This document shows positions 3,091 to 62,217 of a stretch of DNA of 64,000 bases, piece after piece. Position 1 is the stretch's first letter. Every line of letters starts with the position of its first letter. The notes beneath the pieces were generated by a model that saw only the letters and a list, made by a program, of their open reading frames with translations, made no database searches and was not told where the DNA came from. This DNA comes from Candidatus Limnocylindrales bacterium. GTDB taxonomy: Bacteria; Moduliflexota; Moduliflexia; Moduliflexales; JAUQPW01. The translations under genes were made by a program, and so were the position numbers. The stretch covers positions 1 through 64,000 of the forward strand of contig DATMBG010000021.1 in NCBI GenBank assembly GCA_035559535.1, given 5' to 3'.

Positions 3091-4671
3091 TTATCGAACC
3101 CTCCGTCTCAACACCCGACTGAGAACTTCTTTAGCAGCACGTTCACCGGATTCAGTAGCTCCGTTCATAAATCCTTGAAAATCAAGACTTGTATGTTCTC
3201 CGGCAAAGTGGAGGCCCTTAACCGGTTCCATTTCGGCTCCTGCCAGGGTGGTATATTGACCCGGTCTATAGCAGGCATAACTTCCTTCAACGAAAGGCGC
3301 CGTCGGCCAGTGGTAACGGGCAGCTTGCCCGGTATAAGCCGTCGTGGCTCCGGGGAAAATTTTGTTGATCTGGGAAACGAAATCGGCAGCTTGTTCCTGA
3401 GGAGTCCCCTTACCGACCGTAATTCCACGCTTTCCTCCCACGAAGTTTGTCAGAATTCCATGTTTACCGGCCTGTCCACGGCTTGTGTCCCAAGAGGATT
3501 GATAACTCAGATCTGAAAAAGTACTGCCGTTACTTCCGGCCATCTGCCAGATCCGTTGGGAAAAGCCTGCAATAATCTTCGCATTGGTACCATAGCCCAG
3601 GGTCTCTATAGCCAGTCGCTTAACCGGAGGGAGTGGGACCTGGATGTTAACCTGCCGAAGCATGGTAAAAGGGATGGCCAGAACCACCTCGTCGGCTGTA
3701 ATATCTTTGGCCTTACCGGCCTGGTTAACCGTCAAGCGATAAGTCCCATTGGCAAGCTGTCGGATGGCTTCCAGGCGAGTTTCAAACTCGATGGGTCGCC
3801 GAAGTCGCTGGGCAAGTTGCTTTGGTACACTATCATTACCTTCGGCGATATGGAAGCGCTCATCACTTTCCCCGAAGAGTTTGAAGTGATCTGGATCGGT
3901 TCCGATCAAAAAGAGTAAATTCAGAGCACTTTGTTCATCCACTTCAAGGCCGTATTCCCCCAGATAGGCTACTTCCAGTAAAGATCCAATGACCCCGGTT
4001 ACACCCCGTGTATTTAACCATTCGGCGATACTGAGACGGTCCAGGGCTTGACCATTGTGGGGGTTTTTATAGGTCACCGATCCATCCCCGGTAAGGGTTG
4101 CAAGATCTTTCAGAATAAGCGCAGCGACCGGACGAAAATTTTCTACGATCTCGGTATAGGGCACAGAACGGTTTTCAAAGTAATAAACATCCGAGACCAA
4201 GTTATCATCGGCCTTATGGACATCGATCAGTGTAAGTCCTAGTTCCTTAACCAGACGCCGAAGCGAGGTGTGGCTGGTATCGATGAACTCACCCCCCAGC
4301 TCTGCAATCTGGCCGTCAGGAAAGGCCTTACGCAACGTAAACATACGTCCTCCCACCCGGGTATCTGCCTCTAGCACACGGGCCTGGATCCCCGCTTGCT
4401 GAAGTCGATAAGCACAGGTCAGTCCGGCACAACCTGCACCCACAATGACAACCCGGGGACCCTCGGCGGCCATTACCGAAAATTCTGGAAACACTTTATC
4501 CACCACTATCCCGGCTACGACGGCGGTGGCTGTTTGAAGGAACCGACGGCGACTCCATTGAACCTCGGCAATCTGTTCAAGCCCCTCCGTTGTGGAAATA
4601 CCTTTCGTTTCAAAGTATGCGGCAAGTTTTAAAGCACGTTGAATTTTAGAAAAAAGTTGGGTTCTGGCCAT
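3091..4671 (-). CDS. Flavin monoamine oxidase family protein with Tat-like N-terminus
   Basis: An FAD-dependent amine oxidase of about 526 residues. The dinucleotide-binding loop VVIVGAGCAGLTCAYRL lies near residue 72, followed by LEAD and GGRMFT, as in monoamine oxidase and L-amino acid oxidase. The C-terminal FAD-binding segment is FAGEHTSLDFQGFMNGATESG. Before the FAD domain is SRRRFLQTA (about residues 40-48) with a hydrophobic stretch, a plausible twin-arginine export signal but preceded by about 40 extra residues. I chose the ATG at 4671 because GGAGG lies 7 bases upstream. An alternative start at 4743 would overlap the upstream DUF4241 gene. The likely role is oxidative deamination of an amine in the periplasm; the substrate is unknown. 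Confidence 0.85.
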   Translation of the reverse strand: MARTQLFSKIQRALKLAAYFETKGISTTEGLEQIAEVQWSRRRFLQTATAVVAGIVVDKVFPEFSVMAAEGPRVVIVGAGCAGLTCAYRLQQAGIQARVLEADTRVGGRMFTLRKAFPDGQIAELGGEFIDTSHTSLRRLVKELGLTLIDVHKADDNLVSDVYYFENRSVPYTEIVENFRPVAALILKDLATLTGDGSVTYKNPHNGQALDRLSIAEWLNTRGVTGVIGSLLEVAYLGEYGLEVDEQSALNLLFLIGTDPDHFKLFGESDERFHIAEGNDSVPKQLAQRLRRPIEFETRLEAIRQLANGTYRLTVNQAGKAKDITADEVVLAIPFTMLRQVNIQVPLPPVKRLAIETLGYGTNAKIIAGFSQRIWQMAGSNGSTFSDLSYQSSWDTSRGQAGKHGILTNFVGGKRGITVGKGTPQEQAADFVSQINKIFPGATTAYTGQAARYHWPTAPFVEGSYACYRPGQYTTLAGAEMEPVKGLHFAGEHTSLDFQGFMNGATESGERAAKEVLSRVLRRRVR

Positions 4672-4711
4672 GACCAATCCTCCAAATCGATGGGTAAAAA
4701 AGCGGCCTCTT

Positions 4712-5359
4712 TTACACGGCCTCTTCCATATCCAAAAGGTCAAAATCGGTTACCACACGACTGACGCGTCCATCCGGGCCGTATCCCAGGTAGGTTGCAT
4801 AAAAACCATCTCCAAAGCCCGACGAAAAGGCTATGAGATTTGCTCCATTGGAAGGATTCATACATATATTCATCCAAGACCAGGAGGGAAGGTAGGTTTT
4901 TTCAAACTCCGAAATTAACCTTTCCCGATAGCCCTCTTCATGTTCTAATTTTTCCATAAGTATCTGAGCCGTTTCTGCATCCATAAAACATCCCATTTCC
5001 GAATCAACCCCATAACCAAATATCTCCCTTTCCCTCAGGGAGCCCAGATCCTGACCCGGAATTGTAGCCATTTCCCATCGTACGGGCATCTCAGAACCTG
5101 TCTGGATCATAGCACAGACAACCCTCTCATCCCCGGTATCCAGGAAATGGGCAACGCTTAAAATAACCGGATAAGAACCCGGTCTAAAACTTACCGTAAA
5201 GGGTTTGGGCTCCGGACAAACCAGGGGATCACAGGCAACTAACTTGCCTGAAGTCAAAACCAGCTCCCCAATGGGATGACATTTTAAAAGGATTTCTTCA
5301 TCTGCAACCACTATTTTTTGACCATCCTGAAAGGCCTTGGAAAAGTCGGGATGTTTCAT
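4712..5359 (-). CDS. DUF4241 domain-containing protein
   Basis: A 215-residue protein matching the DUF4241 family in its characteristic order: an N-terminal part ending in the SYPVILSVAHF strand, VVCAMIQTGSEMPVRWEMA, then FGYGVDSEMGCFMD, and a C-terminal NICMNPSNGANLIAFSSGFGDG. The family has no assigned enzymatic function that I can state with confidence. In other bacteria it is often found alone or near toxin/immunity-type genes, which I do not see here. There is no signal peptide. GGAGG precedes the ATG by about 7 bases. It lies 40 bases upstream of the amine oxidase on the same strand and may be co-transcribed with it. Confidence 0.8.
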   Translation of the reverse strand: MKHPDFSKAFQDGQKIVVADEEILLKCHPIGELVLTSGKLVACDPLVCPEPKPFTVSFRPGSYPVILSVAHFLDTGDERVVCAMIQTGSEMPVRWEMATIPGQDLGSLREREIFGYGVDSEMGCFMDAETAQILMEKLEHEEGYRERLISEFEKTYLPSWSWMNICMNPSNGANLIAFSSGFGDGFYATYLGYGPDGRVSRVVTDFDLLDMEEAV

Positions 5360-5544
5360 AGGTTATCCTCCAAACATCATCAAACAGATAACGTATAGCC
5401 GGGGTTTACCTCTAGATTTGTCGTCATTATAAAAATTAATGAGAAGGATGCAAGGGGAAAATGCCGGGAATCGAAAGAAAGAATTCTCAAGCTAAAGATT
5501 TCTCTTCCTCAACCAGCTTGATTCAAACGATCCAAAGAAATAAC

Positions 5545-5574
5545 TTGACGGAGTATTCCTCCGACAGATATATA
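5545..5574 (+). promoter_or_regulatory. Candidate sigma-70 promoter for thiolase
   Basis: TTGACG (5545-5550) and TATATA (5569-5574) are separated by 18 bases and lie about 120 bases before the thiolase ATG. The rest of the 332-base gap between the divergent genes (5360-5691) shows no further gene. Confidence 0.4.
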
Positions 5575-5691
5575 ACAGATAGATAAAAGCTATACTTTCA
5601 AGGTTTAATTTTGCAAAAATAACGATTAGAGAAAACGGACTAAAGTATCCGGCTTCGATTTAGTCGTCAGCGAGAAGGGAGGAGAGTCAGT

Positions 5692-6891
5692 ATGCATAAA
5701 GATGTTGTCATTATCGGAGGAGCCCGGACCCCTTTCGGGAAATTCTTGGGAAGTCTCAAAGATATAGACTCTGTAGAGCTGGCCACCGTAGCCTCTAAGG
5801 AAGCCATGAGGCGGGCTCGAATCACACCGGATCGGATTGATCATGTGGTCTTTGGGAATGTTATTCAAACCCATAAAGGATCTATTTATTTAGCCAGACA
5901 CATCGGCTTAAAATCGGGGGTTCCGATTTCAACTCCGGCCCTTACCGTAAACCGACTGTGTGGTTCCGGTTTACAGGCCATAGTTTATGGAGCCCAATTG
6001 CTTTTGTTAGGTGAAGCAACCTTTGTACTGGCGGGTGGAACGGAAAATATGAGTCAGGCCCCCTATGTTTTACGTGGAGCTCGGGAAGGCTTCAGACTCT
6101 CATTTGCCGGAAATGAGCCGGTATTGCAGGATTCTCTAGGAGACGCTTTGGTAGACACATACCACGATACGCCCATGGCCATCACGGCTGAAAACTTAGC
6201 ACAGAAATATCAAATCACCCGACAGGAAGTAGATGAATTTGCTTTGCGGAGCCAGATGAAAGCCCGGGCGGCTATTATGGAAGGAAGACTTAAGGAAGAG
6301 ATCGTCCCCATGGAGATAACGGACAAAAAAGGACGGACCTCTATTTTTGACACCGATGAACATCCCCGTATGGATACCACCCTGGAAGGACTTTTGAAAT
6401 TACCTCCGGTATTTAAAAAAGACGGATGTGTGACGGCGGGTAATGCAAGTGGCATCTGTGACGGTGCAGCAGCTGTTGTTTTGACCACGGCAGATATAGC
6501 CGAAAAAGAGGGCCTGACCCCCCTGGGAAGATTGGTTAACTGGGGGCTGGCCGGTGTAGATCCCGATATCATGGGAATCGGACCGGCAGACGCTACCAGA
6601 ATCGTACTGAAAAAAGCAAATCTGAGCCTGAAGGACTTAGATCTGATCGAGATTAATGAAGCCTTTGCCGCCCAATATTTAGCCGTAGAGAAAGAATTAG
6701 GCCTCGACCGGGAGAAAGTGAATGTAAACGGTGGCGCCATCGCCTTAGGGCATCCGGTAGGCGCCAGCGGGGCCCGGCTGGCTTTAACCCTCCTCTATGA
6801 ACTTCGACGTCGAGAAGCTAAATACGGTCTGGCAAGCCTCTGTATCGGAGGTGGGCAGGGAATCGCAGCGATTTTTGAAAGAATATCGTAG
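5692..6891 (+). CDS. Acetyl-CoA C-acyltransferase (thiolase II family)
   Basis: A 399-residue thiolase that condenses or cleaves acyl-CoA/acetyl-CoA. The nucleophilic cysteine sits in NRLCGSGLQA near residue 88. The C-terminal half has NEAFAAQ, the histidine in GHPVGASGAR, and the second active-site cysteine in CIGGGQGIA, so all catalytic residues are present. The length and the start RTPFGKF are typical of acetoacetyl-CoA thiolases. A strong GGGAGGAG ribosome-binding site precedes the ATG. The next gene on the same strand, about 150 bases on, is a 3-hydroxyacyl-CoA dehydrogenase, so the pair probably serves butanoyl/acetoacetyl-CoA metabolism or fatty acid beta-oxidation. Confidence 0.93.
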   Translation: MHKDVVIIGGARTPFGKFLGSLKDIDSVELATVASKEAMRRARITPDRIDHVVFGNVIQTHKGSIYLARHIGLKSGVPISTPALTVNRLCGSGLQAIVYGAQLLLLGEATFVLAGGTENMSQAPYVLRGAREGFRLSFAGNEPVLQDSLGDALVDTYHDTPMAITAENLAQKYQITRQEVDEFALRSQMKARAAIMEGRLKEEIVPMEITDKKGRTSIFDTDEHPRMDTTLEGLLKLPPVFKKDGCVTAGNASGICDGAAAVVLTTADIAEKEGLTPLGRLVNWGLAGVDPDIMGIGPADATRIVLKKANLSLKDLDLIEINEAFAAQYLAVEKELGLDREKVNVNGGAIALGHPVGASGARLALTLLYELRRREAKYGLASLCIGGGQGIAAIFERIS

Positions 6892-7038
6892 GTCAAACGT
6901 CCTTGTTTGACAATGGAAAAGACTCTTTCGCCTCTAAGACCCAAAGGTACTAAGATGTGCTAAAACTCTGAAGGTCTTTAGGTTCCTTCCAATCGGTAGA
7001 AAACAGGCTTAATGCCTTTGAGTCTTAGGGTTCCGGAT

Positions 7039-7893
7039 ATGCAAATTAAACATGTTGGGGTCGTTGGATGTGGATTGATGGGTTCGGGTATTGCCCAGGT
7101 TTGTGCACAAGCCGGATATCCGGTTACCGTAAGGGAGATTTCCCAAGATTTGCTGGATAAAGGACTTCAAAGTATCCATAAGTTTTTGTCAACCGGCGTT
7201 GAAAGAAAGAAGTTGACCGAAGAACAGAAAAATCAGATCCTGAGCCGAATTAAGGGAACAACTCGACTGGAGGATTTGGGGAATTGTGATTTGATCATTG
7301 AAGCCGTGGTAGAAGATATTCATATAAAAAAGGAAGTGTTTGGTGCACTGGACAAGATTTGTCCTTTTGAAACCATTCTGGCCAGTAATACCTCCTCCCT
7401 GACGATTATTGAGATGGCTGCGGCTACCCGTCGCCCAGATCGGGTTGTAGGCTTGCATTTTTTCAATCCGGCTCCCTTGATGAAATTGGTCGAGGTGGTA
7501 CGAACCATCGCTACAAAGGAGGAAGTCTTTCAGACAGCCTTTGAGTTTGTAAAGTCCCTGGGGAAAGAGCCTGTAGCGGCTAAGGATAACTCTGGATTTA
7601 TCGTTAATTTTCTACTGATTCCTTATCTGCTGGGAGCTATTCGGGCTCTCGAAAACGGATTGGCTTCTAAAGAGGACATCGATAAGGCCATGAAGCTGGG
7701 CTGCGGATACCCCATGGGGCCCTTTGAACTCCTGGATTTTGTAGGATTAGATACCACTTACAAAGTGGCCAATATTTTCTTTGAAGAATATCGAGATCGT
7801 CTTTATGCTCCACCCCCCCTGTTGAAAAAAATGGTTCTGGCCGGTTATCTGGGACGAAAATCCGGGAAAGGATTTTATGATTATCCCAAGTAA
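7039..7893 (+). CDS. 3-hydroxyacyl-CoA (3-hydroxybutyryl-CoA) dehydrogenase
   Basis: A protein of 284 residues from the chosen ATG, with an NAD-binding Rossmann loop at its start (VGVVGCGLMGSGIAQ) and the catalytic histidine in GLHFFNPAPLMKLVEVV. The downstream SGFIVN segment and the C-terminal GRKSGKGFYDY are classical for the family. It interconverts 3-hydroxyacyl-CoA and 3-ketoacyl-CoA with NAD. An ATG 27 bases upstream (7012) is in frame, but family members usually start right before the IKKIGVIG-like strand, as here. It lies downstream of thiolase on the same strand and is probably part of the same pathway. Confidence 0.92.
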   Translation: MQIKHVGVVGCGLMGSGIAQVCAQAGYPVTVREISQDLLDKGLQSIHKFLSTGVERKKLTEEQKNQILSRIKGTTRLEDLGNCDLIIEAVVEDIHIKKEVFGALDKICPFETILASNTSSLTIIEMAAATRRPDRVVGLHFFNPAPLMKLVEVVRTIATKEEVFQTAFEFVKSLGKEPVAAKDNSGFIVNFLLIPYLLGAIRALENGLASKEDIDKAMKLGCGYPMGPFELLDFVGLDTTYKVANIFFEEYRDRLYAPPPLLKKMVLAGYLGRKSGKGFYDYPK

Positions 7894-58576: not shown

Positions 58577-58848
58577 TAACTCATCTAGAGTAGCCCGTCC
58601 TACCGGCTTGCAGATACCTCAAACCTGGAAGATGATACGCTTCCCCCCTATAGAACGCCCTTCTATCTGCGACTGGATTTCAATATCGAAGGGGTATAAA
58701 TCCATAGTTTATGGGAACAGATCGCCATGGATCCTTATCCAGGTCTTCCCCACCGAATACCTCTCCATATTTATTCTTAATGGGTGTAAATTTAAAGATC
58801 AATTGACCCAACCGGTTTTTCAGTACCCGGCCCTCAAATCGGATCCGA

Positions 58849-61800
58849 TTACTTTACCCTGATCTCAATACCCGGGATCGTCCCGACTTTTTCTGCATCA
58901 TACATGTCGTGAACGGATATATAAAGCCTGCCATACCCCGGACGGATAGCAACGGCATCGACCGTGAGTTCTTCTCGCTCGATAGGGAGGTAAGCGGTTT
59001 GTGCGTTGGCTCCTCCTTTGAGTAAGGCCAGGTTACCGGGCAAGAAAAGCCGTACCAGCGGAGCAAGAGCCTGCTCTCTGGGGGTAATGGTGATCTGGAC
59101 CCGTTCACCCACGCGAAGCCGGGCCTTGGTCAGTTTAACCGCAAACTGGAAATGAGCCCGTGGCTCCAGGTGATTGATCTCGATCTCTTCATCTATCCGC
59201 ACCATCAGGTTATCGTTGAGGGCTGTGACTTCCTGACCTATGGTAACATCCTTCAATATGACTTCCTTCCCGTCTATCACCGCCCGAGGGGATGGGTCAA
59301 ACCGAAGAAAGGCCAGCAATTCTACCAATGCTCGGGTATCGGCCGTGGAGTATAGCATGCCGTTGATTAGCCTGCTGGTAACAAAGGTAAACGCCGGACG
59401 AAATAATTCATCCCCGGCATGGTACATTACTCTGGCAACATCGGCAGTTACCTCTAGATTACCGCCCCAGGCCGACTTTGCTTTCCAGTAGGCCTTGTCC
59501 CCTTCTCGCTGAACGGTCCGGCGCAAAAATTGTAAAGATATATCGCGTTGGTTATTGCCGGCAAAGTAGTAGGCAACTGCGTCTTCCGGGCCAGACATCT
59601 CCCTACGGAAATGCATATCCAAAAGTAGAAGTGCATTATCCCGATACCCGGCTCTGAGCAAAGCACCTTTGGCTTTATTCAACATGGTCTCGGCCAGAGG
59701 AAATGGTAGATCTCGCAACCCCAGCAGACGGTGTACCACACGTGCTGTAATGTCTATTTCAGGCTGTCCCCCACACCAGAGGGAATATAAACCGTCGGGA
59801 TATTGGAATGTCGACAGGTGGTGTAGGCCTGCAAGTATACGGCCATGGGTAGCAGGCAAGTCCCCAGGTACCACCCCGCTAACAATGCCACAATAGGCTA
59901 CGGCCAGCCCATACAGGGCGCTTGCGGTCTGCTCTGCTCAGCCAAAGGGGTAGTGAATCAGGGCAGTAACAGTGTCCCTCAGTACCGGTCCCATGGAAGG
60001 GTAAACGACCACCCGCTCACCCTGGACGGTCTGACCCTGGTCCAGGATCATCAACCGGGAAGCCGTCACCTTCTGCACCCCGGGTCCATCTATGGCACGA
60101 ACACTCCAATCTGATCCGGTCTGATTTTCAATGCGAACCTCCACACGACCTGGGCCTTTGATCAAGATGCATTCCGTACCCTCACCCTGGACCCGAGTTT
60201 GGGTTCTATCAAAAGGCGTGGCAATAATCAGATCAGCAGGCTCGCGGGTATGATAATGAACCGCGGCGGTAATAGCATCTCCGACACTGGCAATGGTGGG
60301 TAGATCCAACTCAGCATATAGTGGTTTATCCACTTGAATATCCGAAGTGAGTTCGCGGTAGTCTACCTCCTGGAATAAGTAAGCCCGCACACGCCAGGTA
60401 CCAATCTGATCCCCCAATTTGACCTTGCGTGAAACCTGACCATTCAGGCAAAGTAGCTCCAGGTGGACCATCTCAGGGAACTCCATGCGGATAGGAGCTA
60501 CCATTACCTCCGGTAGCTTGTCTGTAGTCATGAGGAAGTCTAACTCACGCGCAGCCCCCGCCGGGCTGATGTCGGACTGCAGAGAGAAATCTTTTTGAAA
60601 GCTCATAATGATGTCGGGCTCCATAATAAGGAAATCAAGGTCACCAGGTAGAACTAAGTCCTCGTCTTGTAGGTTAGATACCGACCCGGCAGCCAAACTA
60701 TGGGTCGCCTCTCGGATGCTTTCGTAAATCCTTTTGGCGAGTTTGGGGAGGAGGCTCTCGTGTTCCAGTCGGGCGTCGTAGACCAGAAGCAGACAAAAAA
60801 GTGGATGGATGGAAGACCCAACAGGGGAGATAGAGGAAGGAAGATCACCATTTTCAGTCCCCGATTTTGGATCCTGAACCTCTCCACCATTCTCCCATGT
60901 TGTTTTAAGGTGGATTGTAACTTCTTCACCGGGCTGTGCAGTGGCCGGCACGGTTAGCATGGCTTCAAACGCCAGTGGCTTGATCACAACGCCCCAACCC
61001 TCAAAGGGTTTTTCTCGGGTAAATGCCCCAACCGTGAACAGGGTATAGGGTGCTTCGGCGTCAAACTCGAGGGTTTCACCCTGTTTGAGGTCGGCCCGGT
61101 CGATTACCTGGCTGATTCCGGTACGTGGGTTGAAGACGATGAGCTGGGTCGTTAACAGGTCTGTAACCACCTGCAGTCTGCCTCTGACTGCCTGGATACT
61201 TTCCAGGACCAGGGGAGTCCTGTTAACTTCACCCAAACCGACATAAAAGCCCCGCAAAGGCTGAGCGTTCTCCCAGGGTATCAACCCCATCCTGGCCGTC
61301 TGACCCAGCAGGTTGATCGGGATAGGTTTTCGTTCTTTGACACCGGTTCCCGGAAACGAAACAAGCGCTGTATGACCTTCTGGCGTGATGACTTGTACAT
61401 GGAACGGACCACTATGATTTGAAAGATTAAATTGACCCCGAACGATACCCTTTTTGGCCTTTACCTTTTGCACGGCTACTACGCATTCACTACAAACCTG
61501 GCATTGCAATCCAAGCTCCACCGGACCCGAATAGGGTGTGGAAAGCAAAAATAGCTTGAGGGTGAAGGTAAGATATTGTCCTGTATACTGATATGTTTCC
61601 AGGATAGCCAGAAGGGGGGAAAGGGTAAACTCGGCTACACTGAAGGTACATTCAGCCTGGGTATTATCGGATAAGGTAACGATGGCCTTATACTCCCCTT
61701 CTTTTAGATCTGGGTAACGATGCAAAGCCAGACCTCCTGGATTGAGAGTTACCTTTGCCTCATACACCTTTTGTCCGGCCAGTTGGATCTCAACAGCGGC

Positions 61801-62196
61801 TTCATCCTCCGCCATATCCGGTGCAACAATGAACAGAGCTGCCTCGCTACCGGTTCGGTAAATCTTACGGTCGGTCACCACGGTCAGTAATTTAAGCGAA
61901 GGCCAGGGAAGTCGAGGCCGATCAGGTAATGATCCCTCTTGTCCCCTTGTTTTACCGCCGCCCGAGTTATCCCCGAAACTCACCCCGTGCCGGTGGAGCG
62001 AAAGGATCGTAGTCGCACAGTAGGTTTGAAGGGTTCCATCTACCTCTAACGTCACGGGGTGTTCGTTATCGGCCTGGACAAAGATAAACTGCTGGCCGAC
62101 AAATACCCGGTCGTATAAGTAACCTATATTCTGTTTACAATGGATACATACTTCAGCGTCAGCCGGATTAGGACGGAAACAGGTGGAACAATACAT
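58849..62196 (-). CDS. Alpha-2-macroglobulin family protein with in-frame TGA at the thioester Cys (candidate selenoprotein)
   Basis: One frame of 1115 codons interrupted only by TGA at codon 753 (59938-59940). N-terminus: a zinc ribbon with CSTC and CIHC pairs, then macroglobulin domains (TDRKIYRTGSEAAL, TWRVRAYLF, KPLYAELDLP), ending in SMGPVLRDTVTALIHYPFG. The next codon is TGA, then AEQTASALYGLAVAY, and the alpha/alpha-toroid thioester domain continues (GLYSLWCGGQPEIDITARVV) to a receptor-binding-like C-terminus. The A2M motif is YPxG-C-x-E-Q, so TGA replaces precisely the thioester Cys while Glu and Gln remain. No frameshift exists: both halves share one frame. Unlike normal bacterial A2Ms, no signal peptide or lipobox is seen. 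Alternative: nonsense mutation or sequencing error. AAGGAG precedes the ATG. Confidence 0.75.
59893..59912 (-). promoter_or_regulatory. SECIS-like hairpin downstream of the A2M TGA
   Basis: In mRNA sense, AUGGGCU pairs with AGCCUAU (7 bp, one G-U) around the loop GGCCGU. The loop begins 33 bases after the UGA, within the 16-37 range described for bacterial SECIS elements, and has G at its first two positions. A competing 4-bp hairpin (GCCC/GGGC, loop UGUAU) lies closer to the UGA. Confidence 0.5.
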
Positions 62197-62217
62197 AGAA
62201 ATCTCCTTTTTAATAAC

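Follow-up and report, generated by a model that had tools for sequence, protein, structure and literature searches.

The window analysed here, a 64,000-nucleotide stretch of contig DATMBG010000021.1 from a Candidatus Limnocylindrales bacterium, carries on its minus strand a gene of the A2M family (58849–62196) that is predicted to encode a selenocysteine (Sec) residue. The gene consists of 1115 codons followed by TAA, and the sole stop inside its frame, read from 62196 down to 58849, is a TGA at 59940–59938 (codon 753), which leaves an open frame of 752 residues before it. The residues upstream of this TGA are ...ALIHYPFG and those downstream are AEQTASALYGLA, which gives the motif YPFG-U-AEQ. 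With a profile of four relatives (E 2.2e-8), the TGA residue aligns to the Cys of YPYGCLEQ in the E. coli protein YfhM/ECAM. This Cys is Cys1187, which is described as forming the ECAM thioester pair together with Gln1190 (PMC4498604). On the basis of the frame, the homolog alignments and the profile, we read codon 753 (59938–59940, minus strand) as Sec at the thioester-Cys position. The original prediction had placed one frame with a lone TGA at the thioester Cys of an A2M protein, and both its coordinates and its reading of the motif hold.

Three close homologs of the window protein, L037, G760 and G833, are 64–66% identical to it. L037 (WFUY01000428.1) comes from a Thermoflexales metagenome-assembled genome, according to its record title (Chloroflexota in the NCBI taxonomy), is 70% identical in its best segment and likewise has TGA at this codon; it was the one close homolog that the collection of named genomes yielded. 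Among 396 genomes of its class, four matches were obtained at E 1e-10, namely L037's own, the TGA forms G760 and G833, and a Cys form, G672, while 400 genomes of its phylum gave four matches consisting of its own and three Cys forms; its order is represented in the collection by one genome, its own. Of 144 relatives of the window genome 18 matched, and the window itself was the sole close one. Homologs were not found in plasmids or in one scan of viral contigs, and NCBIfam holds no family that matches the window protein or L037.

Each of the four Sec forms contains exactly one stop, always a TGA and always at the same position of the alignment; the further, scattered stops that would have argued against Sec are absent from the three homologs (the L037 and G833 copies are fragments at contig ends; that of G760 is full length and lies on a 5.35-Mb contig). 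The TGA is retained although the G+C content at third codon positions ranges from 0.54 to 0.90 across the four. Between the window and L037 the nonsynonymous divergence (dN) is 0.248 upstream of the TGA and 0.208 downstream, with synonymous divergence saturated; the downstream value therefore indicates that the region 3′ of the TGA is under purifying selection.

More distant relatives carry Cys at this site. A tblastn search aligned 20 distant loci, of which 18 reach the site (the alignments of L018 and L030 stop short of it), and besides L037 with its TGA all 17 have Cys. The full-length relatives L057, L058 and L059 show the motifs YPHGCIEQ, YPYGCIEQ and YPFGCVEQ, respectively, and Cys is also present in G672 and ECAM. 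The TGA/Cys pairs that the original prediction had proposed to look for thus exist, and its view that a chance nonsense mutation would seldom strike exactly this codon is borne out by TGA in 4/4 close forms set beside Cys in 17/17 distant loci. A FastTree phylogeny built from the thioester domains unites all four Sec forms in one clade (support 0.983) that is sister to L057–L059 (0.978), so Sec arose or was retained once there.

The window genome (assembly G000, 5.6 Mb, 95.8% complete) contains all the sel genes: selA (622 bits), selB (408.6 bits), selD (388.6 bits) and a tRNA-Sec (74.5 bits) with anticodon tca as read by ARAGORN. The search for selA, selB and selD covered the window genome, and the genomes of the other three Sec forms were searched for tRNA-Sec, which scored above the cut-off in all four. 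It is also found in two of the three genomes with the full-length Cys forms L057–L059. The selD gene (G000:C29:76668-77594; L039, TGA at 1528) is itself a selenoprotein gene, with an in-frame TGA in the context TVECGG-U-AAKLSP; a stable hairpin lies 3′ of that UGA and serves as an internal control.

A candidate selenocysteine insertion sequence (SECIS) hairpin is located just 3′ of codon 753 at 59903–59921 (minus strand), where nucleotides 20–25 pair with 31–38, counted from the U of the UGA. Its loop, UGUAU (59911–59915), lies 22 nucleotides after the UGA and is identical in 4/4 Sec forms. A possible lower stem, in which nucleotides 14–19 pair with 48–53, would extend the element to 59888–59927; in a comparison of the four sequences, two pairs of this stem are changed on both sides and three are broken, in one sequence each. 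The bacterial SECIS (bSECIS) model as given in PMC13188914 specifies a loop of 3–9 nucleotides with G in the first two loop bases, a stem of 4–16 bp, a spacing of 16–37 nucleotides and a minimum free energy of −7.5 kcal/mol or below. The candidate fits in loop length (5 nucleotides), G (second base), spacing (22 nucleotides) and stem in all four forms. Applied without the energy term, a simplified version of this rule is unspecific in a single sequence: in the window sequence it is satisfied at 216 of the 465 codon columns. Requiring that the four sequences share the position of the hairpin reduces these to 16 columns. In eight of the 16 the loop is identical too, and all eight converge on the candidate hairpin, the only case of shared place and identical loop across the 465 columns. 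Codons 759–763 are identical at the nucleotide level in 4/4 forms, and no other run of this kind in the 262 codons that the forms share is as long (permutation P 0.012). In a test on two of the sequences, the top four of 367 windows were those starting at codons 754–757 (local P 0.017). An alternative hairpin, AUGGGCU/AGCCUAU, was dropped as a SECIS candidate on account of its weakness in L037. A preference for A/T-ending codons after the UGA was absent in L037 (2/15 codons, P 0.37).

From the sel genes, the TGA in 4/4 forms, the Cys counterparts and the shared hairpin, we consider it nearly certain that UGA 753 is decoded as Sec, which gives strong support to the central claim of the original prediction. 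SelB and tRNA-Sec, directed by the hairpin, would insert Sec at this codon.

It is very probable that the protein is of A2M type. Pfam detects the A2M domain PF00207 at residues 585–648 (60253–60444; 25.4 bits, cut-off 21). The thioester (TED) domain comprises residues ~735–965 (59302–59994), with a Pfam match to TED_complement (PF07678) over residues 735–825 that scores 19.6 bits, below the cut-off of 22, and an estimated end. Residues 105–186 (61639–61884) give a weak MG2-like match, also below the cut-off (E 0.046). In A2M proteins the bait region sits just before the A2M domain. A hypervariable bait-like segment is found at residues 501–562 (60511–60696), which in one pairwise comparison with G760 are 21% identical, against 50–76% in the other blocks. 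Gln756 (59929–59931), the partner in the putative (seleno)thioester bond, is kept in 4/4 Sec forms, as are Tyr749 and Phe751. Near the C terminus, Met1098–Tyr1099 (58900–58905) is likewise present in all four and was matched by eye to the Met-Tyr at 1634–1635 of ECAM, a pairing in which the program alignment did not superpose the two pairs. In PMC4498604, the thioester pocket is described as including ECAM Met1634 and SaA2M Met1625–Tyr1626.

The window protein starts with MYCSTC... and shares with G760 an N-terminal, zinc-ribbon-like CxxC...CxxC arrangement (residues 1–22; 62131–62196) that was recognized by eye and has no Pfam match. Hydropathy revealed no signal peptide or membrane helix, with a maximum of 0.72 in the first 60 residues. 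Given this start and the lack of a signal peptide by hydropathy, the protein is probably cytoplasmic. A second CxxC at residues 232–235 (CQVC/CGVC; window 61492–61503), common to the window protein and G760, is a possible metal or redox site.

A further residue sets the Sec forms apart. Cys808 (59773–59775), in a DGxxxxW-C-GG loop, is Cys in 4/4 Sec forms and in 0/22 Cys forms compared. In the 20 Cys-type sequences selected by the motif with Cys at 753 (L030, in which the motif is missing, was excluded), the residue is Pro, Lys, Ala or Gly; it is Arg in G672 and Asp in ECAM. Within the stretch common to all four Sec forms, 753 and 808 are the only columns that are Cys or Sec throughout. Residue 808 is the end of the DGxxxxW loop, and such loops presumably lie on the same domain face as the thioester, which would bring Cys808 near Sec753.

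Because Cys808 is confined to the Sec forms at that position, two chemistries come into view, a Sec753–Gln756 selenoester or a Sec753–Cys808 bond. The selenoester put forward in the original prediction is plausible, and we favour, with some reserve, its formation in one state or more: the features that accompany the ester in A2M proteins are kept, namely Gln756, the aromatic and Met-Tyr residues and the bait-like stretch. The two bonds may alternate. Taken as a whole, the best explanation, and on balance a probable one, would be Sec decoding of a protein that works like a thioester A2M with a selenoester and has Cys808 as partner. The resting protein would hold a buried internal selenoester between Sec753 and Gln756. 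Cleavage of the bait-like stretch by a protease would expose this ester. By acyl transfer, and at a higher rate than a thioester would achieve, the ester would then trap the protease itself or some other nucleophile. With the ester missing or opened, Cys808 could form an Se–S bond with Sec753 and thereby protect or switch the site. More specifically, and more tentatively, the gene may provide a genetically encoded selenoester in a cytosolic, complement-like protein trap, with Sec753–Gln756 as the warhead and Cys808 as a redox gate acquired as Sec replaced Cys.

The strongest competing explanation accepts the Sec and takes it for a redox centre, in which a Sec753–Cys808 selenenylsulfide cycles in catalysis or sensing and no Gln756 ester is formed. 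We regard it as the less likely account, one that nevertheless deserves serious consideration. The distribution of Cys808, the only other shared Cys in the common stretch, agrees with it, as do the absence of an apparent secretion signal and the presence of the CxxC at 232/235 in both full-length forms. According to PMC13188914, homology to thiol oxidoreductases or the presence of redox motifs is common among selenoproteins, and most uncharacterized ones are likely to be redox proteins. A pure redox site, however, would have no need of Gln756, the CxEQ surroundings, the bait-like stretch or the Met-Tyr pair, all of which are kept. Moreover, the proximity of residues 808 and 753 is itself deduced, and in L058 and L059 the same loop contains a Cys three positions ahead of residue 808 (GFCMYP and GFCFYP), so that a loop Cys is not wholly limited to Sec forms.

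Several observations weigh against the selenoester reading or its supports. The Cys808 pattern is at least as compatible with a redox role as with an ester, and a selenoester in the thiol-rich cytoplasm would need good burial. The G760 copy falls below both Pfam cut-offs (20.2 against 21 and 16.9 against 22), and AlphaFold models are of low confidence, with a pLDDT of 31 for the whole protein and 46 for the TED. Foldseek placed ECAM first for this low-confidence TED model at E 0.066, a result not used as evidence. As to the hairpin, its bare form has a minimum free energy of −7.8 kcal/mol in the window and of just −5.6 kcal/mol in the other three forms, compared with the limit of −7.5; the other eight of the 16 columns in which the four sequences share a hairpin position have differing loops; local folding around the UGA in the single sequence is no more stable than that of shuffled sequences (z 0.0 to 0.9); and Rfam gave no match in the region 59700–60100. 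Finally, two of the four Sec sequences are the contig-end fragments L037 and G833.

Far less probable is that the UGA is a true stop that yields a truncated protein of 752 residues, perhaps with a separate C-terminal protein translated from the GTG at 59874, a possible start in the downstream frame. Such a downstream piece would begin past the AEQ, within the TED, and termination here is at odds with the UGA in 4/4 close forms, the Cys in the 17 distant loci covering the site, the conserved RNA hairpin and the full Sec machinery. A nonsense mutation, a decaying gene or a sequencing error has nothing but the stop itself in its favour and is scarcely credible: the same stop recurs in three more genomes, no further stop is found in any of the four (two of them fragments) and dN after the stop is low, and a read error in particular is very unlikely because the three other assemblies, one with the gene on a 5.35-Mb contig, have the same TGA. 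An alternative code with TGA as Trp or Gly was ruled out. The window contains 36 open reading frames of at least 200 residues, two of which are the halves of the Sec-A2M gene; 9 of the other 34 terminate at TGA, and because TGA is an ordinary stop in these it is not reassigned, while selA, selB, selC and selD are present.

Among characterized proteins, the Sec-A2M protein resembles the type I A2M ECAM (PDB 5a42, 4rtd, 4ziq) in its TED motif (UxEQ versus CxEQ), its A2M domain and, by eye, its C-terminal Met-Tyr. The two differ in length (1115 versus 1653 residues), in Sec versus Cys and in Cys808 versus Asp. In addition, the N terminus of ECAM contains LALAGC, which we take to be a lipoprotein signal, whereas the Sec-A2M protein has no apparent signal peptide or lipobox. 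ECAM adjoins pbpC, as type I bacterial A2M genes often do (PMC5764988), while the Sec-A2M gene does not lie beside pbpC. Type I A2Ms have a CxEQ thioester motif, in place of which 4/4 Sec forms have UxEQ. Type II A2Ms, such as P. aeruginosa MagD, belong to the same family, have a bait region, for which the Sec-A2M protein has a candidate, and are described as lacking CxEQ (PMC5764988), whereas the Sec-A2M protein keeps the motif with Sec.

Closer in size are L057/G228, L058/G496 and L059/G260 from the phylum of L037, the sister clade in the TED tree, with open frames of 1154–1223 residues. A profile matched them over residues ~70–434 (and in G228 also 566–642), with the rest covered by alignment. 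They differ from the Sec-A2M protein in being 25% identical to it, in having a Cys motif and Pro at 808 and in lacking the N-terminal CxxC...CxxC; their Pfam scores are below the cut-offs or absent. These loci (L057 5081–8653, L058 4891–8352, L059 6051–9719) represent a small subfamily of A2M relatives with an ordinary CxEQ and, by eye, no obvious signal peptide. Another relative of the same length, L056 (G130; 4231–7656), no longer has the thioester motif (its sequence reads QPSGTCAEE) and in this resembles type II A2Ms.

With known prokaryotic selenoproteins the Sec-A2M gene has in common the UGA, a downstream hairpin near the bSECIS model and the replacement of a functional Cys by Sec; many of the known families, by contrast, consist of redox proteins. 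A 2026 review lists 119 prokaryotic selenoprotein families or subfamilies in its Table 1 (PMC13188914), and the words 'macroglobulin', 'A2M' and 'thioester' do not occur in its main text; 'macroglobulin' and 'thioester' likewise have no occurrences in the portions of PMC12013277 and PMC9312934 searched. A full-text literature search, at the level of titles and abstract openings, found no Sec-containing A2M or protein selenoester, and an earlier mention is possible. Judged from sequence, the Sec is genuine, and the A2M superfamily gains a new Sec variant.

The same-genus genome G001 lacks the gene at the corresponding place. In its locus L070 the flanks are 89–90% identical and ~33 bp stand in place of window positions 58577–62203, a clean presence/absence of the whole gene. 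The gene has a G+C content of 0.52, compared with 0.46 for the window, and in the TED tree the window sequence groups with G760 (0.860), among copies from the class of L037 (0.703). The simplest reading would be that the gene was gained by transfer; alternatively, it may have been lost in G001. Its neighbours in the window are a gene for a Sel1-repeat protein and an undecaprenyl diphosphate synthase-like (uppS-like) gene. In G760 (L074 4350–14696) it lies amid aromatic amino acid genes (shikimate kinase/dehydroquinate synthase, chorismate synthase, EPSP synthase and prephenate dehydrogenase), and in G833 its neighbour is a galactarate/altronate-dehydratase-like gene. No neighbouring partner shared across the window, G760 and G833 was found.

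Where UGA is read as a stop only, this gene is cut in two. Read with Sec, it would add an unusual selenoprotein family: a large member of the complement/macroglobulin superfamily with Sec at the very position responsible for covalent bonding. Should the bond to Gln756 form, it would constitute a natural selenoester within a protein, possibly a new natural chemistry. The family would also offer a simple test case for what makes selenium worth its cost to a cell at a site of acyl transfer.
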